In this document: positions 4,766 through 37,370 of the stretch, one piece after another
Layout of the letters: each line of letters opens with the position of its first letter
Numbering within the stretch: the first letter of the stretch is position 1
From: Clostridia bacterium
Lineage (GTDB): Bacteria; Bacillota; Clostridia; Oscillospirales; Acutalibacteraceae
Length of the DNA stretch: 40,485 nucleotides
Assembly: GCA_017626295.1 (NCBI GenBank)
Contig: JAGAJB010000037.1
Coordinates: forward strand, 1-40,485
Reading direction: 5' to 3'
Made by a program: the position numbers and the translations under genes
Notes under the pieces: generated by a model
Database searches by the model: none
What the model saw: the letters and a program-made list of their open reading frames with translations, nothing else
What the model was told of the DNA's origin: nothing

Positions 4766-6021
4766 GCATTTGAAGTATTAAACGGATATTCTGTTTTTCC
4801 GTTTGCAACGAAGTTTAAAATTTTTAACATTGCATCAAATATATTCAACTTTTCAACCGCACTTGCGGAAGTTAATTTATACTCGGAAACAGTTTTATCG
4901 GAAACAGTAACTTTAACTGTTCCCAACGTCTGATTTTCGGAAACAGGCGCTTCAACATCGGTACATAACTCCACATTGACTTTTATATTTTCTTCCTCAC
5001 CTTTTTTTATAAGTATAGGAGAAAGTTCGGGAATATTGACTTTAACTTCGTTACTTCTTCCGCCGATAACGGTAACGTTATTTATAAGTGATTTATCAAT
5101 TTTCGGTGTGTAGGATGTGTAATTGGAAAAACCCCAACTCAACATTGCTTTTGCAGTTTCAAATCGGTCACTGCTGTTACCGCTGCCCATTACAACGGCT
5201 ACAAGGTGCAAATTATCCCTTTTTGCGCTTGCAGATACACAACACCCCGCCTTTGCGGTTGTGCCTGTTTTAAGCCCCGTAGTACCTTCATAAAAACGGA
5301 CAAGTTTATTAGTATTGACAAGTTCCGTTTCGCCGTTTCTTAAAGAATCCATCCAGACTGTTGTATATTCCGTTATAAACTCGTGTTTTAAAAGTTCACA
5401 GGACATAATTGCAATATCGTGTGCGGTAGTTAAATGGTCATCAGTAGTATCGTCAAGACCCGTAGCATTTACAAAATGGGTATTATTCATCCCCAACTCT
5501 TTGGCTCGTGCATTCATTAAAGAAATAAACGCTTCTTCACTACCCGAAATATATTCACCTAAAAGAGTTGCAGCATCGTTTGCACTGCCGATTACGGTAG
5601 CGCGAAGAAGTTCATCAACAGTCATCACTTCCCCTTCTTCAAGCCATATCTGTGACCCGCCTTTACTTGCGGCATTTAAAGAACAGGCAACCTTATCTGC
5701 CAAGGTAATCTTTTTACTGCTGACAGCCTCGGCAACTAAAAGAATTGTCATAATTTTAGTGACAGATGCCGGAAATAATTTAGTATCGGGGTTAAATTCC
5801 ATCAGAACTTTACCTGTTGACACATCCATAAGCACAGCAGATTTTGCCTTAATTTCAACAGGGAGTTTTTTAGCATCATCTCCGTTGGGAACAGTGGAAG
5901 TAAATGCAGAAGGAAGTTCTATATCTTCATTCTCTTTAACTACCCTTTCCCCACCTATTACACCAATTGTCATTTGCATTAAAATTATCGATGCAAGAAA
6001 AACCGTTATAAATCTTTTCAT
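4762..6021 (-). CDS. dacF: D-alanyl-D-alanine carboxypeptidase (penicillin-binding protein 5/DacF type)
   Basis: Trims the terminal D-Ala from peptidoglycan pentapeptides outside the membrane. A hydrophobic signal segment covers about residues 4-22. The serine peptidase S11 motifs are intact: SVTK (86-89), SAN (146-148) and KTG (251-253). A C-terminal beta domain ends in an amphipathic stretch suited to membrane association. The length of 419 residues is normal. SD GAGGTG precedes the ATG. A strong terminator hairpin for prmA ends only some 25 bases upstream of the SD, leaving almost no room for a separate promoter. Assignment to DacF rather than DacA or DacB is by general resemblance only. 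Confidence 0.88.
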   Translation of the reverse strand: MKRFITVFLASIILMQMTIGVIGGERVVKENEDIELPSAFTSTVPNGDDAKKLPVEIKAKSAVLMDVSTGKVLMEFNPDTKLFPASVTKIMTILLVAEAVSSKKITLADKVACSLNAASKGGSQIWLEEGEVMTVDELLRATVIGSANDAATLLGEYISGSEEAFISLMNARAKELGMNNTHFVNATGLDDTTDDHLTTAHDIAIMSCELLKHEFITEYTTVWMDSLRNGETELVNTNKLVRFYEGTTGLKTGTTAKAGCCVSASAKRDNLHLVAVVMGSGNSSDRFETAKAMLSWGFSNYTSYTPKIDKSLINNVTVIGGRSNEVKVNIPELSPILIKKGEEENIKVNVELCTDVEAPVSENQTLGTVKVTVSDKTVSEYKLTSASAVEKLNIFDAMLKILNFVANGKTEYPFNTSNA

Positions 6022-6055
6022 ACATTTTCACCTCGGTAAATATATGAAAAGAAAG

Positions 6056-6107
6056 AAAAATAAATGCAGACAGAACATTATTACAATGTTTTGCCTGCAT
6101 TTATTTT
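6056..6107 (-). terminator. terminator after prmA
   Basis: A stem of more than 20 bp with two non-Watson-Crick positions and a 5-base loop (about 6080-6084) is followed on the minus strand by a T/C-rich tract. It closes the tcdA-yhaM-prmA unit. Confidence 0.8.
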
Positions 6108-6114
6108 AAATTAT

Positions 6115-7032
6115 TTATTCACACACAAGGCAGACCCAACCGCCGTTTTCTATTCGGCGAAGTATTTTTAAGCCCGCGTTTTCAAGACTTAAACAAACTT
6201 CATCGGCTCTTGAATCTATGATACCCGAGGCAATAAACTTTGCACCGGGGAGCATAAAGGTTTTTACCTGAGTGCTGAAAAGTTTAATAATATCAGCAAC
6301 GATATTTGCCACAACAATACTGTATTTTTTGTTAACTTTATCTGCAAGGTCACCGCAGACAAACTGAAGTTCGGGTTCTGTAAAACCGTTCATTTTTCCG
6401 TTTTCTTTAGCAGTTTTAACGGCAATTTCATCTATATCAACACCGAAACCTTCCTTTGCACCTAAAAGCATTGATGCAATGGCAAGAATACCGCTTCCGC
6501 AACCAATATCAAGAACGGTATCGTTATCCGTTACAATTTCGTCGAGAACTTCAAGACAAAGTCTTGTTGTGTCGTGCGTACCTGTGCCGAATGCAGCACC
6601 CGGCTCAATGTTGAGAATTGCTCTGTTGCCGCTGTTATACTCATCTATCCAGGTAGGACGGATAAAAAGTCGCTCACCGATAGGTGTAGGTTTAAAATAG
6701 GCTTTCCATTTATCTGCCCAATCCTCTTCACTGCAACCCTCGGTTTCAATTTTATATGTAATATTTTCTGCACTAAGGCGCTCGGAAATAAAAGAAACGG
6801 CTTCAGCGGGATTCATACCCTCTTCAAGATAAATATGAATAACGGATTCATCCCTGTTCTTTTGAAGTAAATCTTCATCTATAAGGTCAATATGAGCAAT
6901 TTCCCACGCTTCTTTTTCAAGTTCGCTGTAATCTTCGATATAAATACCGTAAGGAACAGTCATCATTGCAATGCCCGATGCTCTTTCGGTATCGCTTGTG
7001 GGAACAAAAATTTTTACTTCTGTATACTGCAT
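6115..7032 (-). CDS. prmA: ribosomal protein L11 methyltransferase
   Basis: SAM-dependent enzyme that trimethylates ribosomal protein L11. An N-terminal substrate-recognition domain (about 1-120) precedes a Rossmann methyltransferase domain with motif I DIGCGSGILAIA and a VVANIVADII catalytic-region motif. The GAAFGTGTH segment ahead of motif I is characteristic of PrmA. The length of 305 residues is normal. It starts one base after the yhaM stop, so the two are translationally coupled. Last gene of the tcdA-yhaM-prmA operon. Confidence 0.94.
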   Translation of the reverse strand: MQYTEVKIFVPTSDTERASGIAMMTVPYGIYIEDYSELEKEAWEIAHIDLIDEDLLQKNRDESVIHIYLEEGMNPAEAVSFISERLSAENITYKIETEGCSEEDWADKWKAYFKPTPIGERLFIRPTWIDEYNSGNRAILNIEPGAAFGTGTHDTTRLCLEVLDEIVTDNDTVLDIGCGSGILAIASMLLGAKEGFGVDIDEIAVKTAKENGKMNGFTEPELQFVCGDLADKVNKKYSIVVANIVADIIKLFSTQVKTFMLPGAKFIASGIIDSRADEVCLSLENAGLKILRRIENGGWVCLVCE

Positions 7033-15667: not shown

Positions 15668-16705
15668 ATGTCAGTTAAAGTTGCAATTAACGGTTTCGGC
15701 AGAATTGGCCGTCTCGCATTCCGTCAGATGTTCGGCGCTGAAGGTTACGAAGTAGTAGCTATCAACGACCTTACAAAACCCTCAATGCTTGCTAATCTTC
15801 TTAAGTATGATACAGCACAGGGTGGCTACTGCGGCAGAATCGGTGAAGATCTTCACACAGTTTCCGCTGATGACGAAGCAGGTACAATCACTGTTGACGG
15901 CAAAACTCTTAAAATCTATGCTATGGCTAACGCTGCTGAACTCCCCTGGGGTGAAATCGGTGTTGACGTTGTTCTTGAATGCACAGGTTTCTACTGCTCA
16001 AAAGAAAAGAGCATGGCTCACATCAACGCAGGTGCTAAGAAAGTTGTTATTTCTGCTCCCGCAGGTAACGACCTCAAGACAATCGTTTTCTCTGTAAACG
16101 AAGATACTCTTACTGCTGATGATCAGATTATTTCTGCTGCATCTTGCACAACAAACTGCCTTGCTCCCATGGCTAAGGCTCTTAACGATTATGCTCCCAT
16201 CCAGAGTGGTATCATGAGCACAATCCACGCTTACACAGGTGACCAGATGATCCTTGACGGTCCTCACAGAAAAGGCGATATGAGAAGAGCACGTGCAGGC
16301 GCTGCTAACATCGTTCCCAACTCAACAGGTGCTGCTAAGGCTATCGGTCTTGTTATCCCCGAACTCAACGGTAAACTTATCGGTTCTGCACAGAGAGTTC
16401 CTGTTGCTACAGGTTCTACAACAATCCTTACTGCAGTTGTTAAGGGTACAGACGTTACAAAAGAAGGCATCAACGCTGCTATGAAGGCTGCTGCTTCTGC
16501 ATCTTACGGCTACAACGAAGATCCCATCGTTTCTTCCGACGTTATCGGTATGAAATACGGCTCACTCTTTGATGCTACACAGACAATGGTATCAAAAGTT
16601 GCTGACGATCTTTATGAAGTTCAGGTTGTTTCTTGGTACGACAATGAAAACAGCTACACAAGCCAGATGGTTAGAACGATCAAGTACTTCGCAGAACTTG
16701 CTTAA
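15668..16705 (+). CDS. gapA: glyceraldehyde-3-phosphate dehydrogenase
   Basis: Glycolytic enzyme that oxidises glyceraldehyde-3-phosphate to 1,3-bisphosphoglycerate with NAD. The N-terminal Rossmann motif is [12 protein letters not shown], and the catalytic Cys160 sits in SAASCTTNC. The length of 345 residues is typical. The ATG at 15668 lies 7 bases after a GGAGGT SD; an in-frame TTG at 15653 overlaps that SD and is not used. Codon choice is strongly biased (AAC, ATC, GGT, GCT), as expected for a highly expressed gene. It is flanked by its own promoter and a strong terminator, hence monocistronic; pgk and tpi are not adjacent. Confidence 0.97.
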
Positions 16706-16722
16706 TTAACCTAAAATAAACG

Positions 16723-16753
16723 CTCCTCAGTCGAAAGACTGAGGAGTTTTTTT
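16723..16753 (+). terminator. gapA terminator
   Basis: Perfect 10-bp stem CTCCTCAGTC/GACTGAGGAG with a GAAA tetraloop and seven T. A textbook intrinsic terminator. It may also slow transcripts of the convergent lipoprotein gene, although the minus-strand T-tract is weak. Confidence 0.93.
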
Positions 16754-16760
16754 GTAGCTT

Positions 16761-17525
16761 TTATTCTTTTCTTGTATAAACGTTATATTCAAGTGTGGAA
16801 TACACATCGCTAAAAAGGAAATTCTCTGCTCTCTGTTCTGTATACTCTGCTGATGACATTATAAAATCGGCGTTACCGCTTTCAATTTCAAAAAACATTG
16901 TATCAAAATCTGCAACTTCAATTACAAGGTTGTAACCGAGATATGCACAAATTGTTTTAGCAATATCAACATCCGTACCCATTAAGACGCTTTCATCGTT
17001 ATAATAAACTCTGTTTTCAAAAATAGGGTCGCAAAGCATTACCAACTTCCCTTTTTCACCCGAAGAGTCTGGAACATTAAAACTTTCACCTTTAATATGC
17101 GACTGTTTTATTTTATCAAATGTTCCGTCATTACTTAATGACTCTATTGCTTCATTAAATTCATTCAATAATTTCTTGTTTTCAAAGTTAAAAATTGCTC
17201 TGTATTCAAGTTTGTATTCGCATTTTTCTGAAAATTCCAATTCACACTTCGAGTCAATAAAACTTTGCGCTTCGTATTCATTTAATACAACAAAATCCGC
17301 CTTACCGTTACGGACCGCCGTAACCGCATCAAAAGACGATGCATACTCAGATAATTCGCCGCCAATTGAGTCACAGTAAACTTTCGCCGCGGTTGTTTCA
17401 TCCGAATCGGAAACAACTGCAACATACCGGGTTTTATTTATTAAAACTTCACTGTCATCTTCGCAAGAACTAAAACACAATATACAAACCACAGATAACA
17501 ACACACATATAATTCTCTTACTCAT
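16761..17525 (-). CDS. lipoprotein with amino-acid-type solute-binding domain, lobes in reversed order
   Basis: Predicted extracytoplasmic lipoprotein: signal segment 4-20, lipobox FSSC with Cys21. The fold is that of family 3 solute-binding proteins, but the halves are swapped. Residues 31-146 resemble the usual second lobe plus C-terminal helix: a VAVVSDSDETTA strand and loop, a RNGKADFVVLNE segment, and NEFNEAIESLSNDGTFDKI. After a short linker (147-158), residues 159-254 resemble the usual first lobe: GKLVMLCDPIFENRVYY, GTDVDIAKTICAYLGY, and YTEQRAENFLFSD with the carboxylate-binding Arg232. The total of about 234 mature residues is one complete domain. The ATG at 17525 has no clear SD and follows the upp terminator. 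No permease or ATPase gene is nearby. Confidence 0.8.
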   Translation of the reverse strand: MSKRIICVLLSVVCILCFSSCEDDSEVLINKTRYVAVVSDSDETTAAKVYCDSIGGELSEYASSFDAVTAVRNGKADFVVLNEYEAQSFIDSKCELEFSEKCEYKLEYRAIFNFENKKLLNEFNEAIESLSNDGTFDKIKQSHIKGESFNVPDSSGEKGKLVMLCDPIFENRVYYNDESVLMGTDVDIAKTICAYLGYNLVIEVADFDTMFFEIESGNADFIMSSAEYTEQRAENFLFSDVYSTLEYNVYTRKE

Positions 17526-17532
17526 ACCACAC

Positions 17533-17563
17533 AAAAACCGTTTTCAGCATTTAGTGAAAACGG
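17533..17563 (-). terminator. upp terminator, just upstream of the lipoprotein gene
   Basis: A 9-bp stem (CCGTTTTCA/TGAAAACGG) with an 8-base loop and five T on the minus strand. The T-tract ends only seven bases before the lipoprotein ATG at 17525, so the structure occupies the place where an SD would normally be. Confidence 0.8.
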
Positions 17564-17575
17564 CTTTCTTTCATA

Positions 17576-18208
<633 letters not shown>

Positions 18209-18247: not shown

Positions 18248-18276
18248 ATTATATGACTAGTGTCGAATATTGTCAA
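18248..18276 (-). promoter_or_regulatory. upp promoter
   Basis: Minus-strand TTGACA, 17-bp spacer, TATAAT: a perfect sigma-A consensus. Just downstream (18228-18242) a CAGATA/TATCTG inverted repeat with a 3-base centre lies at the expected transcription start and could be a repressor site. Confidence 0.88.
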
Positions 18277-28522: not shown

Positions 28523-29602
28523 TTAATAAACAAAGTTATAGTATTCTGAAACTTCCGTTATAGTACCTGCAGTAAGAGTACCTTTAATATAGCCGTCTGT
28601 TGCATCAGCAACATAATTAGTTGTCTGTTTCAAAGAAACTATCTCGCCTGTAGCGGGTTTGTAAATAAGTTCAACAGTACAGTTTGTGTATGTAAGGTCA
28701 ACTTTTTCAACACCGTTTACATCCATAGCGATTCTTACCTGTTCACCGGTTAACACAGGGAACATTGTGCTTGTAAAACTCTGAGGAGCCTTGCCTGCAA
28801 CTACGGGCTTGGGATTAACTTCGTCGTTGAGAACAATAACAATTTTTACTGTACCGTCAGCGAGTGTCTCTTTAGTTGCATTCTTGATTGCTTTATCAAC
28901 AAGTTCAGCATCGTTAGCATTAAGAAGGCAAGCGCTGTTCTTGTTTTCAATACAGAGTGCATCAGAAACAGTTTTAGCAGGAACAACTAAAGGAGAAGCC
29001 TTTGCGTCAGCCTCGGAAACGAAATAATCGGCATTTCTGTCAATTGCATCACCGAAGAACCAACCGGTAATGAGTCCCTGGTCAATTGATCTGTATGTAG
29101 CCTTTGTAAATGAGGGCTGAGCATTTTTAAGTTTTGCACGGCCGATAACATCCTTATAGTTCTTAAGGATAGCCTGTTTTTCAGCAACAGTTAAACCTGC
29201 TTCTGTTTCGGGAGCCTGTGTTTCAGGAGCCTGTGTTTCGGGAGCCTGTGTCTCAGGTGCTTTTGTTTCCTCTTTTTCAGTTTCTGCGGGTTTTGTAGTC
29301 GCAGGAGCCTGAGTTGTAGGAGCCTCTGTGGGTTTTGTGGTTGCGGGAGTATTTGAACTACCGGAATTTGAGGGAGTTGAAGGAGCCGGACTCGGAGTAG
29401 GCTGAGCAGGCTGATCAACTACATCGTCAAGAAATTCTCCGATAATGGGAATTTCTTTAAGTTTGCTGTTTTTCAAAAGCATAGTTGCTGATGCAAGTTT
29501 GATAGCGGTGCTTGATAAAAGACCGATAACAACGCAAGTAGCAAGGATCATAGCTAAAACTGTTGTAAATCTCTTGTTAGCTTTTAAATCAATATTTTTC
29601 AT
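28523..29602 (-). CDS. membrane-anchored or secreted protein with Pro/Thr-rich repeat linker
   Basis: No family recognised. The N-terminal hydrophobic segment (about 13-33) can be a signal or anchor. A Pro/Thr/Ala/Glu-rich linker (about 65-135) follows, with three to four tandem ETQAP units encoded by 15-bp DNA repeats; then a globular domain of about 220 residues begins LTVAEKQAIL and has two Cys flanking a short segment plus another Cys later. The linker is typical of Gram-positive surface proteins that span the wall; no LPXTG motif is present. The ATG at 29602 follows an AAGGGGG SD; longer frames pass through the promoter. It is divergent from the ceramidase-like gene. Confidence 0.7.
   Translation of the reverse strand: MKNIDLKANKRFTTVLAMILATCVVIGLLSSTAIKLASATMLLKNSKLKEIPIIGEFLDDVVDQPAQPTPSPAPSTPSNSGSSNTPATTKPTEAPTTQAPATTKPAETEKEETKAPETQAPETQAPETQAPETEAGLTVAEKQAILKNYKDVIGRAKLKNAQPSFTKATYRSIDQGLITGWFFGDAIDRNADYFVSEADAKASPLVVPAKTVSDALCIENKNSACLLNANDAELVDKAIKNATKETLADGTVKIVIVLNDEVNPKPVVAGKAPQSFTSTMFPVLTGEQVRIAMDVNGVEKVDLTYTNCTVELIYKPATGEIVSLKQTTNYVADATDGYIKGTLTAGTITEVSEYYNFVY
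29207..29266 (-). repeat. 15-bp tandem repeat encoding the ETQAP linker
   Basis: Four units of 15 bp in a row (29207, 29222, 29237, 29252). The first three differ at one base; the fourth has more changes. In frame, each unit adds five residues, so slippage would change linker length without breaking the frame. Confidence 0.85.
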
Positions 29603-29639
29603 CAAAGTATCCCCCTTGATACCATATAACTTCCATAAC

Positions 29640-29668
29640 ATTTTACACAAAAGGTTCGAAATTGTCAA
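29640..29668 (-). promoter_or_regulatory. promoter of the Pro/Thr-linker protein gene
   Basis: Minus-strand TTGACA, 17-bp spacer, TAAAAT. The predicted start near 29633 gives a leader of about 30 bases with a strong SD. It rules out the longer reading frame, which begins upstream of the promoter. Confidence 0.8.
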
Positions 29669-29700
29669 TACAAAATCTGACGATACTTGATTTGTTTTTC

Positions 29701-29759
29701 GCAAATATGAATTTTTGTGCAAAACACTAAACTAAACATACAGAATTTAGCAAATATGA
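29701..29759 (+). promoter_or_regulatory. paired GCAAATATGA direct repeat upstream of the ceramidase-like gene
   Basis: The 10-base word GCAAATATGA occurs at 29701-29710 and again at 29750-29759, 49 bases apart. The second copy ends three bases before the -35 of the plus-strand promoter, a class II activator position. No regulator gene is adjacent. Confidence 0.4.
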
Positions 29760-29791: not shown

Positions 29792-29846
29792 ATGTTATCA
29801 AATAATGTTGTCGCAAAACGGCAATATAAAAGGAGACAAAACTATT

Positions 29847-32189
29847 ATGAAAAAGAGCAGATTAACAAAACTCATCGCTGTTATTCTCGCCCTCACTTTG
29901 ACATTCTCGTCATTCGGCGCAGTAACAGTCGGTGCATCAAGTGCTTATCCGATTACTGAAAGCGATAATCCCATCGGTGTTATCTTTTCAGACATTATCG
30001 ACACACTTTTGCAATTCATCCTTGATTTGTTCTCAGGTCTTTTCGGTGACGGACCCGGCTTCGTAGACAAAGACACGGCTGTTGACCTTGCAGGTGCAAA
30101 CTACTACGAAGGTATCGGTAAAGAATTCGTCAGCGAAGCAGAAGAAGACGCTAAGTGGAACATCGGTTACGCCAACGAAAGCCTTATCCCCGCAGATTAT
30201 GACAACGGCTCATACTACATCGGCGGTTATATCGCTCCCGAAAACGGCTTTACAAACGTTGTTGAAGGTATTGCTCAAATCCCCGGCCTCGGTAAAGACG
30301 ATATGAAAGTAAGATGTATCGCTATTAACGACGGCACAGATAAAGGCACAGTTCTTTTCGCTACTATTGACTGTATCGGTATCACAAACGCTGATATTAA
30401 AGACATCCGTGCTTTGCTTGCTGACTTTGCAGCAGCAAACAACATTGTTGCTATCAACGTTGCTTCAACACATACACACAGTTGTATCGATACTGAAGGT
30501 CTTTGGACTAAGAACATCGCTAAAATCGTTTCCAACGGTATCATCAGCGGTACACAGGCTGACGAAGAACTTCAGCAGGGCACAAACCCCGAATATATGG
30601 CATTCCTTAAAGAAACAGTTGCAAATACACTTAAGGCTGCTTTCATCGATATGCAACCCGGTGTGCTTACATACGCAACAAAAGATATTGGTGAAGATTA
30701 CTTCCAGAACAAAAACCGTCCTTCATCCGGTCAGATGATTTATGATGTAAACGAAAACGGTGAACGTTATTTCACAGGCGAAACGGAAATCGCTATGACT
30801 GATATTTCAAGATTCGTTTTCAGACCCGATGATGAATCCGCTAAACCCACAATGATGCTCAATATCTCTGCTCACCCCGACGTTGCAGGTCTTCCTACAG
30901 AAAGCAACTCCGGTAGAGAAATCAGCGGTGACTACATCTTCTACTGCGGTCAGTTCCTTGAAAAATACGGTTACAACTTTATGTTCTTCCAGGGTGCTAT
31001 CGCCGGTATTTATATGGCTCGTTCAGCAACAGGCGACGGCGTAGAGACTCACCAGAGAGTTGAAGAATCCCAGAGATTCGGTTATGAACTTGCAAGAATT
31101 CTTCTTTCTATGAACCTTACAGAAAAAGAAATCCTTGCTGATGCTAAACTTTCAAACAGCAAAGAAGTTGAAGAAAACACTGAATTAGTTTCTGTTTATG
31201 ATGAAGACGGAAACCTTAAACAGGAATTTAAAGACTACGGTTTCTCATTTGTAAATTACGTAAAAACACTTATATCTTCCGACGAAGCAACAATAACTGT
31301 TCACAATATTAACGAACCCTTCTCAATTGTTGCTGATGAAGAAGCAAAGATTATCGCTGTTAAGAATGGCGACTACACAGTTTACGAAAATGTATACGGT
31401 GAAGATGATGTCGTAACTGCATTACCCTTACAGGGGGTATATGCTGTAACAGATGAGGAAGGCAATTTCAAAGAAGTTTTCGTTGACGAAACAATTGCTA
31501 AAGCAGCCGTTAACGATGAAACAAATGCTTACGAAATTACCGTTGGTTCTGATGTTCTTCTCGAAATCGATATGACAGATATGACACTCGATACAGAGTA
31601 CACAAAAATGGTTGTAGCAGAAAACGGCAAAGTATTTGAAGGCGAATATATGCCCGTTAACCCCGGTTACTCTGTATGGTATGAAAACTGGGAACCTGTT
31701 GAAGAAGTTGAAGTTGCTCCCTACCTTAACCTTTACTTAAAACAGGTTGAAATCCCCGTTTCCAATGCTCTTATTGAAGCAGTCGGCAAACTCAATATGG
31801 CTAACTATGTTGTTATTGCTCATGAAGACGGCTCATACTCAACTATCACCGAAATCGGTTATATGGAAATCGGCGATGTATTCAAAACAGTATTCCTTCC
31901 CGGTGAAATTTGTCAGGACCTTATCGCACCCAACGGAATCTCCCTTATCGGTGAATACGCTATTACAGGTAAGAGTTTCTCAAGCCAGCCCGCTTGCAGT
32001 ATCTTCGGCGATGATGTTAAGTGCTTCGGTCTTATGAACGATGCTATCGGTTACGTTGTTCCCGACAATGACTATACAATGGGTGACCCCGTAAACCACT
32101 ACCAAGAACTTATTTCTCTTGGTGCAGGTGTTGCGTCAGCACTTATGGATGGTCTTGTTGAACTTAATTCCGAAATTGTACGTGTTTAA
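29847..32189 (+). CDS. secreted neutral/alkaline ceramidase-like protein
   Basis: Predicted exported hydrolase-like protein with a signal peptide (about 1-30, VGA-SS cleavage). A hydrophobic amphipathic stretch (42-68) follows, then a domain resembling the N-terminal domain of neutral/alkaline non-lysosomal ceramidase. The TIDCIGI strand and NVASTHTHS motif (His209, His211) match the zinc-binding region; a later MLNISAHPDVAG segment carries another candidate His. The C-terminal half is less clear. The substrate could be a sphingolipid or another amide; that is inference. Codon use is as biased as in gapA, suggesting high expression. 780 residues from the ATG at 29847. Divergent from the linker protein. 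Confidence 0.65.
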   Translation: MKKSRLTKLIAVILALTLTFSSFGAVTVGASSAYPITESDNPIGVIFSDIIDTLLQFILDLFSGLFGDGPGFVDKDTAVDLAGANYYEGIGKEFVSEAEEDAKWNIGYANESLIPADYDNGSYYIGGYIAPENGFTNVVEGIAQIPGLGKDDMKVRCIAINDGTDKGTVLFATIDCIGITNADIKDIRALLADFAAANNIVAINVASTHTHSCIDTEGLWTKNIAKIVSNGIISGTQADEELQQGTNPEYMAFLKETVANTLKAAFIDMQPGVLTYATKDIGEDYFQNKNRPSSGQMIYDVNENGERYFTGETEIAMTDISRFVFRPDDESAKPTMMLNISAHPDVAGLPTESNSGREISGDYIFYCGQFLEKYGYNFMFFQGAIAGIYMARSATGDGVETHQRVEESQRFGYELARILLSMNLTEKEILADAKLSNSKEVEENTELVSVYDEDGNLKQEFKDYGFSFVNYVKTLISSDEATITVHNINEPFSIVADEEAKIIAVKNGDYTVYENVYGEDDVVTALPLQGVYAVTDEEGNFKEVFVDETIAKAAVNDETNAYEITVGSDVLLEIDMTDMTLDTEYTKMVVAENGKVFEGEYMPVNPGYSVWYENWEPVEEVEVAPYLNLYLKQVEIPVSNALIEAVGKLNMANYVVIAHEDGSYSTITEIGYMEIGDVFKTVFLPGEICQDLIAPNGISLIGEYAITGKSFSSQPACSIFGDDVKCFGLMNDAIGYVVPDNDYTMGDPVNHYQELISLGAGVASALMDGLVELNSEIVRV

Positions 32190-33401: not shown

Positions 33402-33432
33402 CAAAAAGCGAGGTAAAATCAACCTCGCTTTT
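33402..33432 (-). terminator. terminator of the methyltransferase operon
   Basis: Perfect 11-bp stem AAAAGCGAGGT/ACCTCGCTTTT with a seven-base loop; on the minus strand it is followed by T. It overlaps the last bases of the D12-type methyltransferase and marks the left limit of the restriction-modification island. Confidence 0.85.
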
Positions 33433-34459
33433 ATGTGTTTGAACAAGTAATTATTACTTCAGAAAGTTTTTGATTCCCTTTGCCTTGTGTAGAATGGTTA
33501 TAGTCTATGTCATTTCTATTTACAGAATAAAAATATTCTTCACATAGGGTCTGGAGTTTATTTATTGGAAAAATAGCCTTATTTGAGTAGCTTATGACTA
33601 AATTGATATTGTTAGCACGACAAAAAGTTAATATATTTATAAACTCTTTCTCTACCTTGCTTTTATAGCAAAAATCACTCATAAAACGATTTTCTCTATA
33701 TTTCGCCTTATAATTAACAACAGGATTATCATATTTTACAACAGTTTCTAATATATGATAAAATCTAGAATATTGCTCTTGTGAGTATGGTGAATCCAAA
33801 TATATTGTATCAACTTTTTTTAATAAATCAGTTTCAAACAATTCTTTATAATCTTTACAAAATGCTTTGTTTTCCGTACTCGATTGATAAATATCTGAGT
33901 ATTTATCACATTTTTTAAGAAACTCTCGCCATAAATCCATTTTTTGCAGAGGAATAATCCTTTTATGTTCACTTGGCATAAATTGCGCAAAATGTCCAGG
34001 AGTAGATTGTACTACACACATAGCATTCATAAGAGCCAATAAGTATAATGATTGTTTATATTTGTCATCTACCTTACTTATTGCATACCGTATCGAATCA
34101 ATATCACAGCATTGCTTTAAAGAAAAATATGTTTTTGCGTATGTTTTTTCGAAAAATGAAAAAGTTTTGTTGTTTTTATTATCTGCAAAGTGTTTTTGCA
34201 AATCGAATATTGCGGTTTGAGAAGAAATAGTTTGGTCTTGGTTTACAATAACTGCTTTGCTGATGGTATAACTATATTCTTGAATATCATTTGTATATAC
34301 AGTAAAAAATTCTTTTAACGCATAACTTACAACATTTGAACCTGCCATTAAATCACAAACAATTCCGTTCTTGGGAGTGATTTTTCTTATTTCGGGAACA
34401 ATAAATTCCAACAACTTACTTTTGTTTCCCATATATCGGATAGTATCTAATTGTAACAT
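33431..34459 (-). CDS. DNA adenine methyltransferase, D12 (Dam-like) class
   Basis: Predicted N6-adenine methyltransferase of a type II system. N-terminal RYMGNKSKLLEFI resembles the D12-class start; SAM motif I is CDLMAGSNVVS (35-45); the catalytic motif IV reads DSPY (222-225), where DPPY is usual, followed by SQEQYSRFYHILET as in this class. 342 residues from the ATG at 34459, whose first base is the last base of the preceding stop (TAATG). Clearly more AT-rich than its neighbours, consistent with horizontal gain. It is the second methyltransferase of the island. Confidence 0.85.
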   Translation of the reverse strand: MLQLDTIRYMGNKSKLLEFIVPEIRKITPKNGIVCDLMAGSNVVSYALKEFFTVYTNDIQEYSYTISKAVIVNQDQTISSQTAIFDLQKHFADNKNNKTFSFFEKTYAKTYFSLKQCCDIDSIRYAISKVDDKYKQSLYLLALMNAMCVVQSTPGHFAQFMPSEHKRIIPLQKMDLWREFLKKCDKYSDIYQSSTENKAFCKDYKELFETDLLKKVDTIYLDSPYSQEQYSRFYHILETVVKYDNPVVNYKAKYRENRFMSDFCYKSKVEKEFINILTFCRANNINLVISYSNKAIFPINKLQTLCEEYFYSVNRNDIDYNHSTQGKGNQKLSEVIITCSNT

Positions 34460-35745
34460 TACTCTTTCTCCCAAATGATAATATAGTCATTTGTTATAAT
34501 ATCGCTATATGTATTTCTTGCCGTTGTTAGCGAACGACTATTGTTGTTTATTTCATCAAGAAAAACATCGTGCAAAACAAATCCATAATTTTCAGCAATC
34601 AAAGTCATATACTTTCCGGTTTCAATTTTTACCTTCTTCATTTTGCTATCGGATATTTTTATTACAACTTTGCCACTGGGTTTTAAAACTAAACTCATGT
34701 TTTCAATAACTTTTTCTATCGACAAAAAAAATTCACTAATGATTTTTGCCGATTTTTTATCTATGGATTCCATATTGCTTATAACAGAATTGATTTCAGC
34801 ATAAGGGGTACGTTCAATAGTTTCATATTCTTTCTTTTGTAATCGGTCATTACCCAACATTTGATGTGCAAGATAAGAGTACTCATCGGAACTTTTAATA
34901 TATTCCATCCAATACATTTCAAGTTTTAGTGTTTCAATATACCTAACAGATGAAATGTATGGTGGATTTGTGACTATTAAATCTACTTGTTCCTTATATT
35001 GTGACAAATCAATTTTGGTGCTATCGCCTAAAAGAATATTAGCATCACAACTGCCATTATTATAATTATAGTACGTAGTTCTTTTTTTAATTGCACGTTC
35101 AAAAGAAGTCATAACATCTATATGTATTTTCCCCTCTTCTTCTAAACGACGCATTCTTTTACTGATTCCGGGAAATACATGCATCGTATCTGCATTGCTT
35201 ACGTTGCGAAGTATTGCCGAAATAACCATAAGATAAAAGTCTCTATACTGCTCTTTGTTTTCTATGTTTCTTCCTAAGTCGTTATCAAATAAAAAATCGA
35301 TACATTTTTTTAATAGTATTAAATCCTTTTGAACAAAATCTTTAAACCAATGGTCTCTGTTTTGAACATAGGGAAAATCATTATCAGAAATTTCAAAATT
35401 ATTGTTCTTGATGATTTCTAAAATACGGTTATTAAGGGAAATCAAGGTTTCTTTCTTTAATGGGCTAGTTTTTACAGTGGCGATTTTTTGCGCAATAGGA
35501 TTGATTTCAACACCCAAAAAATTACGATTTAATTTCAAACTTTCTACAGCGGTGGTCCCTGAACCCGAAAAGGGGTCAAAAATCAAATTGCCTTCAACAC
35601 TATATTTTTTTATGAATGCTGATGGGATGGCAGGAATGAGTTTACCGTAATATCTATGAAATGAGTGTATTGGCAGTCTAGGTTCTCTTTTTTCGTTATC
35701 CAAAAGGATTTTATTCTCGCTGTTATTATTTATTTGAAAATCCAT
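34459..35745 (-). CDS. DNA methyltransferase (N6-adenine, NPPY type)
   Basis: Predicted type II modification enzyme. SAM motif I DPFSGSGTT lies at residues 57-65 with GVE at 78-80, and the catalytic NPPY at 260-263. So motif I precedes motif IV, with a region of about 180 residues between, presumably target recognition. An N-terminal HSFHRYYGKLIPAIP segment is shared with modification methylases of this type. 428 residues. The start overlaps the small upstream gene by 20 bases. AT-rich codon use unlike the housekeeping genes. Confidence 0.87.
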   Translation of the reverse strand: MDFQINNNSENKILLDNEKREPRLPIHSFHRYYGKLIPAIPSAFIKKYSVEGNLIFDPFSGSGTTAVESLKLNRNFLGVEINPIAQKIATVKTSPLKKETLISLNNRILEIIKNNNFEISDNDFPYVQNRDHWFKDFVQKDLILLKKCIDFLFDNDLGRNIENKEQYRDFYLMVISAILRNVSNADTMHVFPGISKRMRRLEEEGKIHIDVMTSFERAIKKRTTYYNYNNGSCDANILLGDSTKIDLSQYKEQVDLIVTNPPYISSVRYIETLKLEMYWMEYIKSSDEYSYLAHQMLGNDRLQKKEYETIERTPYAEINSVISNMESIDKKSAKIISEFFLSIEKVIENMSLVLKPSGKVVIKISDSKMKKVKIETGKYMTLIAENYGFVLHDVFLDEINNNSRSLTTARNTYSDIITNDYIIIWEKE

Positions 35746-36061
35746 GTTCTAATGCCCCCAAAATTTCAGATGTCATTTCTGAAGCTTTATCGTTAATAAT
35801 TCCTTTTATTTTGAGCGTGGTTAATTCGTTGCTTTTAATCTTAAATTTTTCTTGAAAAATATCTTTAATCAGAAAATCGTAGAAAGATAAAAGTTTGTCT
35901 TCACTCAACCGATTTGGTGCGGTTCCATTTATCACATTTCTTAAATTATTGTAATCAATTATATTTTCAGGATAAGATTCATTATACTTTTTGCATATTT
36001 CAGACAATTTAATATACGGCCATATTTCATTTAGATATTTTACTATCATTTGTTTGTTCAA
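35726..36061 (-). CDS. small protein at the head of the R-M operon, possible control (C) protein
   Basis: 111 residues, no recognised family. The segment NLRNVINGTAPNRLSEDKLLSFYDFL resembles the last helices of an Xre-type HTH, and the position (first gene, overlapping the methyltransferase, facing a divergent endonuclease) is that of a C regulator; this is inference. Charged and helical, with no Cys pair. The ATG has AGGGTGAT upstream and a consensus promoter whose predicted start leaves a leader of about 12 bases. Confidence 0.5.
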   Translation of the reverse strand: MNKQMIVKYLNEIWPYIKLSEICKKYNESYPENIIDYNNLRNVINGTAPNRLSEDKLLSFYDFLIKDIFQEKFKIKSNELTTLKIKGIINDKASEMTSEILGALEHGFSNK

Positions 36062-36079
36062 AAAATATCACCCTACATA

Positions 36080-36108
36080 ATGTTACACTATTTTCAATCA
36101 TTTGTCAA
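36080..36108 (-). promoter_or_regulatory. promoter of the methyltransferase operon
   Basis: Minus-strand TTGACA, 17-bp spacer, TAACAT. The strong -35 contrasts with the poor promoter on the endonuclease side of the same 154-base gap. Confidence 0.75.
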
Positions 36109-36169
36109 CAGATAATTACATTAAAAACAATCATATGAATAATTTTTAATAAAATACAGTTTCTTTTTA

Positions 36170-36192
36170 TATGATAGTATGATAGTATAAAT
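36170..36192 (+). repeat. TATGATAG tandem repeat in front of the endonuclease gene
   Basis: TATGATAG twice in tandem (36170-36185), then TATAAAT. The last part may be the -10 of the endonuclease gene, but none of the candidate -10 words has a decent -35. This repeat is a candidate regulator site. Confidence 0.5.
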
Positions 36193-36215
36193 ATATAAGA
36201 GGAGGGAAAAGTTCA

Positions 36216-37370
36216 ATGAAAAAATATGATATTAAGTCTGTAAATCTTGAATTTAAGAATTTGCTTTCTGGTCCTGCTCCTGTTGGTAGAATTTTAAATT
36301 ATATTTACTTGATTGGAACTAAAGGGTTAAAACACAAAAACGGTAATCGACAAACAAATTTGAACAATAATATCGGTGACGCTTGGTGCACTGAGTTTAT
36401 GCTTGGGTTAGGATTAGTTCGGCTTGGTAATATAGTGGGTACAGCATATAAACTCGAACTAACTAATAACGGAATGCTTTTGTTTGGTTATATGAAAGAT
36501 AAAGACTTCGATTTTGACGAAGGAGTTTATAATTCGAACATTTTGAATGTTTTATCACAAATAAAGAAATGTCATCCAAATCTTTATCAAGAATTTAAGA
36601 ACATTTTTGTAAATACTTATCCCTTTCTTATATTAAAAGATTATTTGAAAGAAAAAGGATATTCTTTTGATAGCAGTGATAGTTTTAATAAAGATTTCTT
36701 TGAAGCAGTTGCTGATTTATATGGTGAACAAGCGCGGGAAGCGGGTTTCAATCGAGTCCCAAGTCTTATTCAATTGTGTAAACTTTTTGGATTTGCAGAG
36801 TTACGAAGTGGCGTACATTTTAATAAGGCAACATTTGAAAACCTAGATTCAGATATAGCTGTATATGAGTTTATTGAATCTTCTTTAATAGAAGAAGCGG
36901 AAAAAATCCAAAAGTTATATGAGTTTGGTGCTGATATAGCTGAAAAATATGGCGAAGATGGAACGGTTTTTGTATCAGGTTTAGCACGAAACAGTGAGTT
37001 GCAGAAAAAGTTCAAAAATAACCTTTCCGTTGAACAGGAACATAAATGTGTGATTTGTGGCTTAAAAACGGAGAAATTACTGATAGGCAGTCATATTAAA
37101 CCCTCTGCTGACTGTAATGTGTTTGAAAAAGCTGATACACAAAATGGCTTGCTTTTATGTGCAAATCACGATAAATTGTTTGACAGATATTTAATTTCTT
37201 TTAACCCACAAAATGGAAAGATAACTATAAATGAAAAGCCGATAAAAGATGAATACCCATTTTTGAAATTGGAGGCTAATTTCGTTTTGCCAGATCACTT
37301 GCTCACGGATAAAAGAAAGAAATATTTAGAAAATCATTATCAAGAATTTTTGAAAAGAAAAGATAAATAG
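36216..37370 (+). CDS. HNH restriction endonuclease
   Basis: Predicted type II restriction enzyme. The C-terminal HNH domain shows Cys278-x2-Cys281, SHIKP with His293, then NGLLLCANH with Asn310, Cys315 and His318. The zinc-type Cys pairs and catalytic His/Asn residues are intact. The N-terminal 230 residues have no match I recognise and presumably read the target site. 384 residues. SD AGAGGAGG. Divergent from the two methyltransferases, and AT-rich like them. It could instead be a stand-alone HNH nuclease, but the context supports restriction. Confidence 0.78.
   Translation: MKKYDIKSVNLEFKNLLSGPAPVGRILNYIYLIGTKGLKHKNGNRQTNLNNNIGDAWCTEFMLGLGLVRLGNIVGTAYKLELTNNGMLLFGYMKDKDFDFDEGVYNSNILNVLSQIKKCHPNLYQEFKNIFVNTYPFLILKDYLKEKGYSFDSSDSFNKDFFEAVADLYGEQAREAGFNRVPSLIQLCKLFGFAELRSGVHFNKATFENLDSDIAVYEFIESSLIEEAEKIQKLYEFGADIAEKYGEDGTVFVSGLARNSELQKKFKNNLSVEQEHKCVICGLKTEKLLIGSHIKPSADCNVFEKADTQNGLLLCANHDKLFDRYLISFNPQNGKITINEKPIKDEYPFLKLEANFVLPDHLLTDKRKKYLENHYQEFLKRKDK

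Follow-up and report, generated by a model that had tools for sequence, protein, structure and literature searches.

Family-3 solute-binding proteins (SBPs; PF00497) of the GlnBP, LAO and ArgBP type share with the protein described here the sequence family, the lipoprotein character, the two lobes and the Arg. However, our protein differs from them in its inverted lobes, its termini at the hinge, its altered pocket and the absence of linked transporter genes. In the tandem SBD1-SBD2 protein GlnPQ (PDB ID 6h30), the end of SBD1 and the start of SBD2 are colinear with our protein, but those two lobes belong to two flytraps, which are fused to a permease. Among other SBPs, permutation has been reported by CPSARST for proteins that bind glycine betaine or molybdate and for CysB (PMC2395249). 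MglB-2 (Tp0684) of Treponema pallidum, called 'type Ic', is described in PMC4990184 as a permuted type I glucose-binding lipoprotein.

Lobe order and predicted structure

The gene lies on the minus strand of the window, i.e., the whole stretch of 40,485 nucleotides that was analysed, at positions 16761..17525, stop codon included. These coordinates agree with the earlier note, which did not state the strand. The open reading frame, Pfam, homologues and lobe models identify the product as a 254-residue SBP_bac_3 lipoprotein with its lobes in circularly permuted order. A signal peptide and a lipobox ending in Cys21 were read from the sequence in residues 1-21 (17463..17525). Residues 30-145 (17091..17438) correspond to the canonical second lobe with the normally C-terminal helices, here placed first, as indicated by a PDB match, the profile and the lobe models. 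The linker joining the old C- and N-termini (residues 146-158; 17052..17090) was delimited from the AlphaFold2 model and a comparison of the ends, and the canonical first lobe, here last, occupies residues 159-254 (16764..17051), based on PF00497, the PDB, the lobe models and superposition on LAO domain A. All of these features are on the minus strand. The chain runs from the first interlobe hinge through lobe 2, the C-terminal helices of lobe 1 and the linker to the rest of lobe 1.

SBP_bac_3 (PF00497) was the only Pfam family over its cut-off in the protein. It matched in two stretches, with 78.4 bits in total against a cut-off of 26.4, and residues 173-253 aligned with profile positions 13-92. 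A profile search of the genome placed profile positions 86-130 upstream of positions 13-103 in one frame. Because the end of PF00497 lies upstream of its beginning in a single frame, the lobe order is inverted. The PDB search gave a match for each half: residues 156-252 matched residues 36-135 of 4i62 (269 aa), in its first half, and residues 38-147 matched residues 130-239 of 5eyf (245 aa), in the second half of an ordinary binding protein. The best PDB sequence match was 6h30, in which residues 110-245 of our protein aligned with residues 190-322, across the SBD1/SBD2 border. Lobe models built from relatives gave the order lobe 2-lobe 1 and not the canonical lobe 1-lobe 2. The inversion within one lipoprotein proposed by the earlier note is thus borne out by the split PF00497 order, the PDB matches of each half and the lobe models. 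The 254 residues contain one copy of each lobe, unlike a GlnP-type chain with two SBDs and a transmembrane part. The lobe order in the sequence, its conservation in the genus and a confident model place the termini at the interlobe hinge (the first hinge), as had been proposed.

AlphaFold2 was run with input A4, which comprised 75 sequences, i.e., the window protein and 74 lobe-2-first proteins, the latter taken from 74 of 80 named loci (L112, L129, L138, L141, L163 and L167 were left out). The resulting model was confident (pLDDT 88.5, pTM 0.84), and its helices 96-111 and 114-124 correspond to residues 117-132 and 135-145 of the protein. Model residues 136-224 (protein 157-245) superposed on the isolated domain A of LAO (6xks) over 89 residues with an rmsd of 1.4 Å, and the second half of the model superposed on residues 37-126 of 4ymx (87 residues, 1.2 Å). 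The whole-length sequential match to an ordinary family-3 SBP was mediocre, e.g., 174 residues at 3.2 Å for 4kr5, and TM scores by query were 0.34-0.53 among the 50 Foldseek matches listed, in which sequential alignment scores a permutation poorly. The top Foldseek match was again 6h30 (217 columns, rmsd 19.7 Å); this probably reflects the shared lobe 2-lobe 1 chain order, but in our model both lobes are predicted to pack as one domain. Structure matches to prephenate dehydratase, hydroxymethylbilane synthase and other proteins were taken as general flytrap-fold similarity.

The two halves might instead pair between chains, forming a domain-swapped dimer with two composite flytraps. Consistent with such pairing, the old termini are joined by a short linker of about 13-15 residues, the order lobe 2-lobe 1 spans two flytraps in tandem proteins, as the 6h30 superposition illustrates, and swapped elements are reported for a permuted half of ribose-binding protein (PMC9815098). 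However, the monomer model has a pTM of 0.84, and we consider the dimer unlikely.

Conservation, gene neighbourhood and pocket

In a search for homologues of the same lobe order, 22 genomes of the genus were covered, and 17 of them, counting that of the window, hold a complete colinear one. The other 16 are 29-51% identical to the window protein (28-50% in alignment A1); genome G013 holds a homologue fragment at a contig end, and no homologue was found in genomes G001, G002, G004 and G021. All 17 members align over their full length, and eight columns are invariant in all of them (C21, the lipobox Cys, and F123, G134, I139, G183, D220, S239 and Y242). Colinear homologues in so many genomes are more than chance, which rules out a chance or mis-called frame. 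NG86 dN/dS was calculated for seven hand-chosen pairs. The four closest pairs gave 0.13, 0.14, 0.14 and 0.18 with dS of 1.3-1.6, i.e., near saturation, and of the three wider pairs, two had values of 0.17 and 0.26 at higher dS, and for the third no dS was obtained. The gene is under purifying selection, and its conservation together with the dN/dS of 0.13-0.18 rules out a remnant or pseudogene. A chimera of unrelated halves was also rejected, as both halves point to the same kind of relatives in a database rich in permuted proteins.

These data also bear on whether the gene might be a leftover of a tandem-SBD receptor or transporter, made of lobe 2 of the first domain and lobe 1 of the second and now decaying or non-functional. 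The best matches in the PDB and in Foldseek are both to GlnPQ SBD1-SBD2, with the sequence match running across the domain border, and tandem orders occur among the classified proteins (2-1-2-1 in three and 1-2-1-2 in one); some pocket residues have also been lost. However, the signal peptide, lipobox and stop codon are intact, the gene is complete in 17 of the 22 genomes, dN/dS is 0.13-0.18 in the closest pairs, the model is confident, and importer operons of many named genomes use the same lobe order. Such a leftover is very unlikely, and the claim that the gene is not a fragment of a tandem receptor holds for the present gene.

The upstream neighbour at 17576..18205 (minus strand) is an open reading frame which we take to be upp, the gene of uracil phosphoribosyltransferase, and the convergent downstream neighbour at 15668..16705 (plus strand) is presumably gapdh. 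Flank comparison showed that both are retained in several relatives. The earlier note described the gene as complete between two terminators, and the layout agrees with this. The terminator scan found one terminator-like hairpin at 16722..16747, shared with gapdh and scored on both strands, and a second at 17538..17563 between upp and the SBP gene, filling roughly half of the 50-base gap that separates them. However, the second hairpin was scored on the plus strand only, its minus-strand T-run being read by eye, and the promoter scan listed no minus-strand promoter-like site in this gap. Transcription of the SBP gene may rely on read-through from a promoter upstream of upp. A perfect TTGACA-17-TATAAT promoter-like site is present upstream of upp at 18248-18276 on the minus strand.

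The position of the gene between upp and convergent gapdh was found in the window and in L004, L006, L007 and L010. One of the two genes adjoins it in L005, L008, L009, L011, L013 and L014, and neither was seen in the short flanks of L012, L015-L019 and L022. Members of the window clade thus often lie beside upp and/or gapdh, and their short flanks usually hold no transporter genes. A BLAST search with a reference ABC permease and ATPase gave no match anywhere in the 40-kb window, and the gene has no linked permease and ATPase. The lack of nearby transporter genes stated by the earlier note applies to the window and, among the 17 related loci checked, to the short flanks of 16. The orphan status therefore stands, with L012 as the exception: it lies directly behind an ABC permease and ATPase, the only such locus among 18 including the window. 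The first SBP of the L012 operon is itself permuted, in another way.

Elsewhere in the window, a likely restriction-modification locus was observed at 33431-37370, consisting of a D12-class adenine methylase, an N6/N4 methylase, a small protein without a Pfam match and an HNH_2 protein on the opposite strand. Two long proteins, encoded at 29805-32189 and 28523-29722, have N-termini that look signal-like on inspection, and Pfam gave no match for either at E 0.001.

The pocket positions were assigned by alignment to the GlnBP numbering. We take Arg232 (codon 16830..16832, minus strand) to be the carboxylate-binding Arg of the T-x-x-R motif, as in GlnBP and equivalently in family-3 SBPs; it is retained in 16 of the 17 family members, and its role here is putative. 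Among the core-group pocket residues in the same numbering, Asp166 is kept in 10 of 17 and Phe169 in 8 of 17. The lobe-2 Gly-Thr/Ser-Thr/Gly anion loop is replaced by D40-S41-D42, with Ser or Thr at position 41 in 14 of 17 members and a variable position 42. By this numbering, the amino-group-binding Asp corresponds to Asn82 in the window protein (13 of 17 members have Asp), and the Thr before or paired with the Arg is replaced by Glu227 (Glu in 9 of 17). The changed anion loop, Asn82 and Glu227 suggest that the pocket has shifted, so that ordinary amino acid binding is not assured. The retained Arg had been taken to mean that the protein may still bind an amino acid; the retention stands, but the altered loop and Glu227 weaken the conclusion, and from these residues we regard amino acid binding as doubtful.

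The protein may be a non-transport lipoprotein, i.e., a sensor, scavenger or scaffold with a flytrap fold that no longer serves an ABC importer. No transporter genes were found in the window, the place between upp and gapdh is kept in the window and four relatives, and the pocket is changed. However, L012 stands directly behind a permease and ATPase, and the related importer L206 in the window's own genome could be shared. SBPs that act in trans with shared permeases, as LAO and HisJ do, are known. A non-transport role is a serious possibility that falls somewhat short of an even chance, and on sequence evidence we lean slightly towards a flytrap binder that would serve a permease in trans rather than a sensor or scavenger.

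Permuted relatives, breakpoints and history

Many Lachnospiraceae and Ruminococcaceae/Oscillospiraceae have lobe-2-first SBPs. A scan for related loci queried with the window protein alone gave no match; a profile of transport-type relatives gave at least 567 related stretches, of which the best 80 were kept as named loci. A lobe 2-lobe 1 protein is present in 76 of these 80, which is no estimate of frequency because the query was permuted and the best loci were kept. Two more hold a permease-fused 2-1-2-1 protein, and L141 and L163 have broken frames. In the best 80, a permease is next downstream in 57 and fused in 22 (including the broken L163), and an ATPase then follows in 75; L116, which is cut by a contig end, has neither. 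The loci include the complete genome of Ruminococcus sp. FMBCY1 and named strains, among them R. bromii YE282, Parasporobacterium paucivorans DSM 15970 and Blautia schinkii DSM 10518. SBPs of the order 2-1 thus precede or are fused to ABC permeases, and permuted relatives probably work in ABC importers. Tandem permuted SBPs in the order 2-1-2-1, fused to an ABC permease, were observed at L138:5176-7401 and L167:1685-4006. Of 299 genomes drawn from the whole phylum, ten, not counting that of the window, had a single-SBP match across the permuted junction (E ≤1e-25, spans read by eye), eight of which were confirmed by lobe models. A family search of 300 genomes revealed transport or other permuted types, and no window-type protein, among the complete rows outside the genus that were examined (L068-L093).

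Both lobe orders coexist in the genus. In a census of family-3 SBPs in the 22 genomes, based on matches to PF00497 or to the window protein, 37 proteins had the order 1-2 (one inside a 781-residue protein and one 5'-cut at a contig end) versus 29 complete permuted proteins, namely 17 of the window type, 2 Q, 3 Q', 5 split-lobe R, L032 and L227. These counts leave out the contig-end fragments L022/L229 (permuted) and L212 (lobe 1 only), three large multi-lobe proteins (L224-L226) and the weak match L228. L227 (L227:1201-2196, genome G003) is another lobe-2-first SBP, outside the trees, and possibly represents a further separate permutation.

An SBP tree was built from 113 of 193 extracted lobe pairs, chosen to span the groups, with the lobes aligned in canonical order. 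Duplicate loci of one gene, single-lobe ORFs and all rows of L022, L141, L163 and L190 were left out beforehand; these four loci have partial or broken frames, and L141 also held a canonical protein. A permease tree was built from the neighbouring or fused permeases of 88 of the 113 proteins. Both trees were built quickly, with SH-aLRT as the sole measure of support, and contain several long branches; the groups were named once the sequences had been inspected. The AU tests on the SBP tree and the two-state counts were done without L180.

One ancient permutation could have given rise to all lobe-2-first SBPs, with canonical relatives re-permuted, and a single clade of Qmain and Q' was indeed not rejected by the AU test (p 0.105). 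However, one clade of all permuted SBPs was rejected (p 8e-67), as was one clade of the hinge type only, both on the SBP tree (p 1.3e-25) and on the permease tree (p 1.4e-30). The permease tree is untouched by permutation and gives much the same picture. The breakpoints also differ in kind, and the hinge-like segment is C-terminal in Q' but N-terminal in Q. The AU tests reject a single ancient event, save for Qmain and Q' together, and we regard it as very unlikely. The two-state counts gave minimum changes of 10 and 8, with 6 and 4 forced by strongly supported branches. On these trees, the permuted SBPs are spread over more than one clade, and they differ in their breakpoints.

At least four breakpoints were found: two flank the hinge segment, one lies about 17 residues into lobe 2, and one about 57. 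The Q proteins compared start with the hinge segment, of the IxxxDDLxGK-IGVQ type, whereas the Q' proteins begin beyond it and have a hinge-like segment at their C-terminal end. In L191, L186 and L187, the cut falls about 15-19 residues into lobe 2, and in the R proteins L023, L028-L031 and L181, about 55. SBPs cut in the middle of lobe 2 were also seen at the head of SBP-permease-ATPase operons in L207, L208, L210 and L211, with the SBP genes at 4900-5778, 4956-5849, 5246-6142 and 5328-6269, respectively. In short stretches compared without statistics, the tails of six Q' proteins, e.g., SESSKIQSIDDLDPYYLPAE, look like the hinge segment of canonical proteins (KEGSDIKTVDDLAGKK) joined to their C-terminus (KYIPAE). 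We interpret these tails as the probable scar left when a former tandem duplicate lost, in frame, an internal part of its second lobe 2.

Canonical and permuted SBPs were also found in matching operons. L206 (G000:C13:1-9000), in the window's own genome, is a canonical SBP-permease-ATPase operon, and L205 (G020:C17:18000-28504), in a sister species, has the same gene order with a permuted SBP. The permeases of the two operons are 77% and the ATPases 89% identical; with the SBP lobes swapped, lobe 2 is 70% and lobe 1 67% identical.

The window-type proteins form one clade, which is on a long branch of the SBP tree and is confined to this genus in the samples examined. When the family was held together with Qmain, the tree was 12 log units better than the free search (AU p 0.67). 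Outside the family, the 12 best listed matches of each half were all permuted or tandem proteins, in a database rich in permuted proteins. This grouping and these matches suggest that the ancestor of the window protein was likely a permuted transport protein that later lost its operon.

We consider it highly probable that the explanation as a whole is correct, i.e., that the gene encodes a permuted family-3 lipoprotein that originated from a tandem duplicate, lost its operon and is a flytrap-type binder. An in-frame tandem duplicate with the lobe order 1-2-1-2, as in GlnP-type tandem SBDs, would have arisen and then lost its first lobe 1 and last lobe 2, leaving the permuted order; for the window gene itself, such an origin is likely. 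Its lineage would descend from lobe-2-first transport proteins and would have lost its own permease and ATPase. The protein would capture a small ligand between its lobes and would either feed a permease encoded elsewhere or only sense or buffer the ligand. More broadly, the family-3 SBPs of gut Clostridia are probably a natural hot spot of permutation, with at least four breakpoints and several origins, even within one genus and in matching operons, reached via tandem intermediates that would leave scars. Permuted forms would be used in importers, and the window lineage would be an orphan.

Comparison with known systems

Lobe-2-first transport SBPs, such as L095 of Ruminococcus sp. FMBCY1 and L096 of R. 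bromii YE282, have the lobe order of the window protein and are colinear with it at 26-34% identity. Unlike the window protein, they keep the GTTGD loop (invariant in nine rows of alignment A3), and unlike the window gene, they are accompanied by a permease, either as the next gene or fused, in 79 of 80 loci (the best 80 of at least 567). A literature search found no paper that describes these transport SBPs of Lachnospiraceae/Ruminococcaceae as permuted. In a PDB search with a permuted transport protein, the stretches listed (60 of 98 matches, best stretch of each) were in canonical order, 6h30 apart.

OpuAC versus ProX is, like the present case, a natural circular permutation among type II SBPs (PMC2395249), but it concerns another ligand family and relates distant proteins. 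Among the 50 structure matches listed, OpuAC entries gave the longest alignments to our model (198-208 residues, 9-10% identity). MglB-2 is likewise a naturally permuted SBP lipoprotein, with homologues in Gram-positive gut bacteria; however, it has a type I sugar-binding fold and a breakpoint inside the N lobe, whereas the window protein is cut at the hinge (PMC4990184). The window protein does not belong to that family, SBP_bac_3 alone being over its cut-off.

The earlier note knew of no described natural example. This does not hold for glycine-betaine-binding proteins or MglB-2, as PMC2395249 and PMC4990184 show. For family 3 it holds as far as searched: no paper on permuted family-3 SBPs was found in a literature search that covered mainly freely available papers. 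Natural permutation is therefore already known in other SBP families (OpuAC/ProX and MglB-2) and, as far as searched, new for family 3. Pfam lists the permuted proteins simply as SBP_bac_3, and split stretches are the sole hint, which should serve as a warning. The permuted SBPs are also natural scaffolds for SBP-based biosensors.

As a rule, natural circular permutation is inferred from a comparison of distant proteins. In the present case, sister species carry a canonical and a permuted form, with lobes 67-70% identical, in corresponding operons, and a single family shows several breakpoints, which gives a rare view of protein rewiring. Such a close pair, together with the several breakpoints, allows direct tests of how permutation originates and how it affects ligand binding and permease docking.
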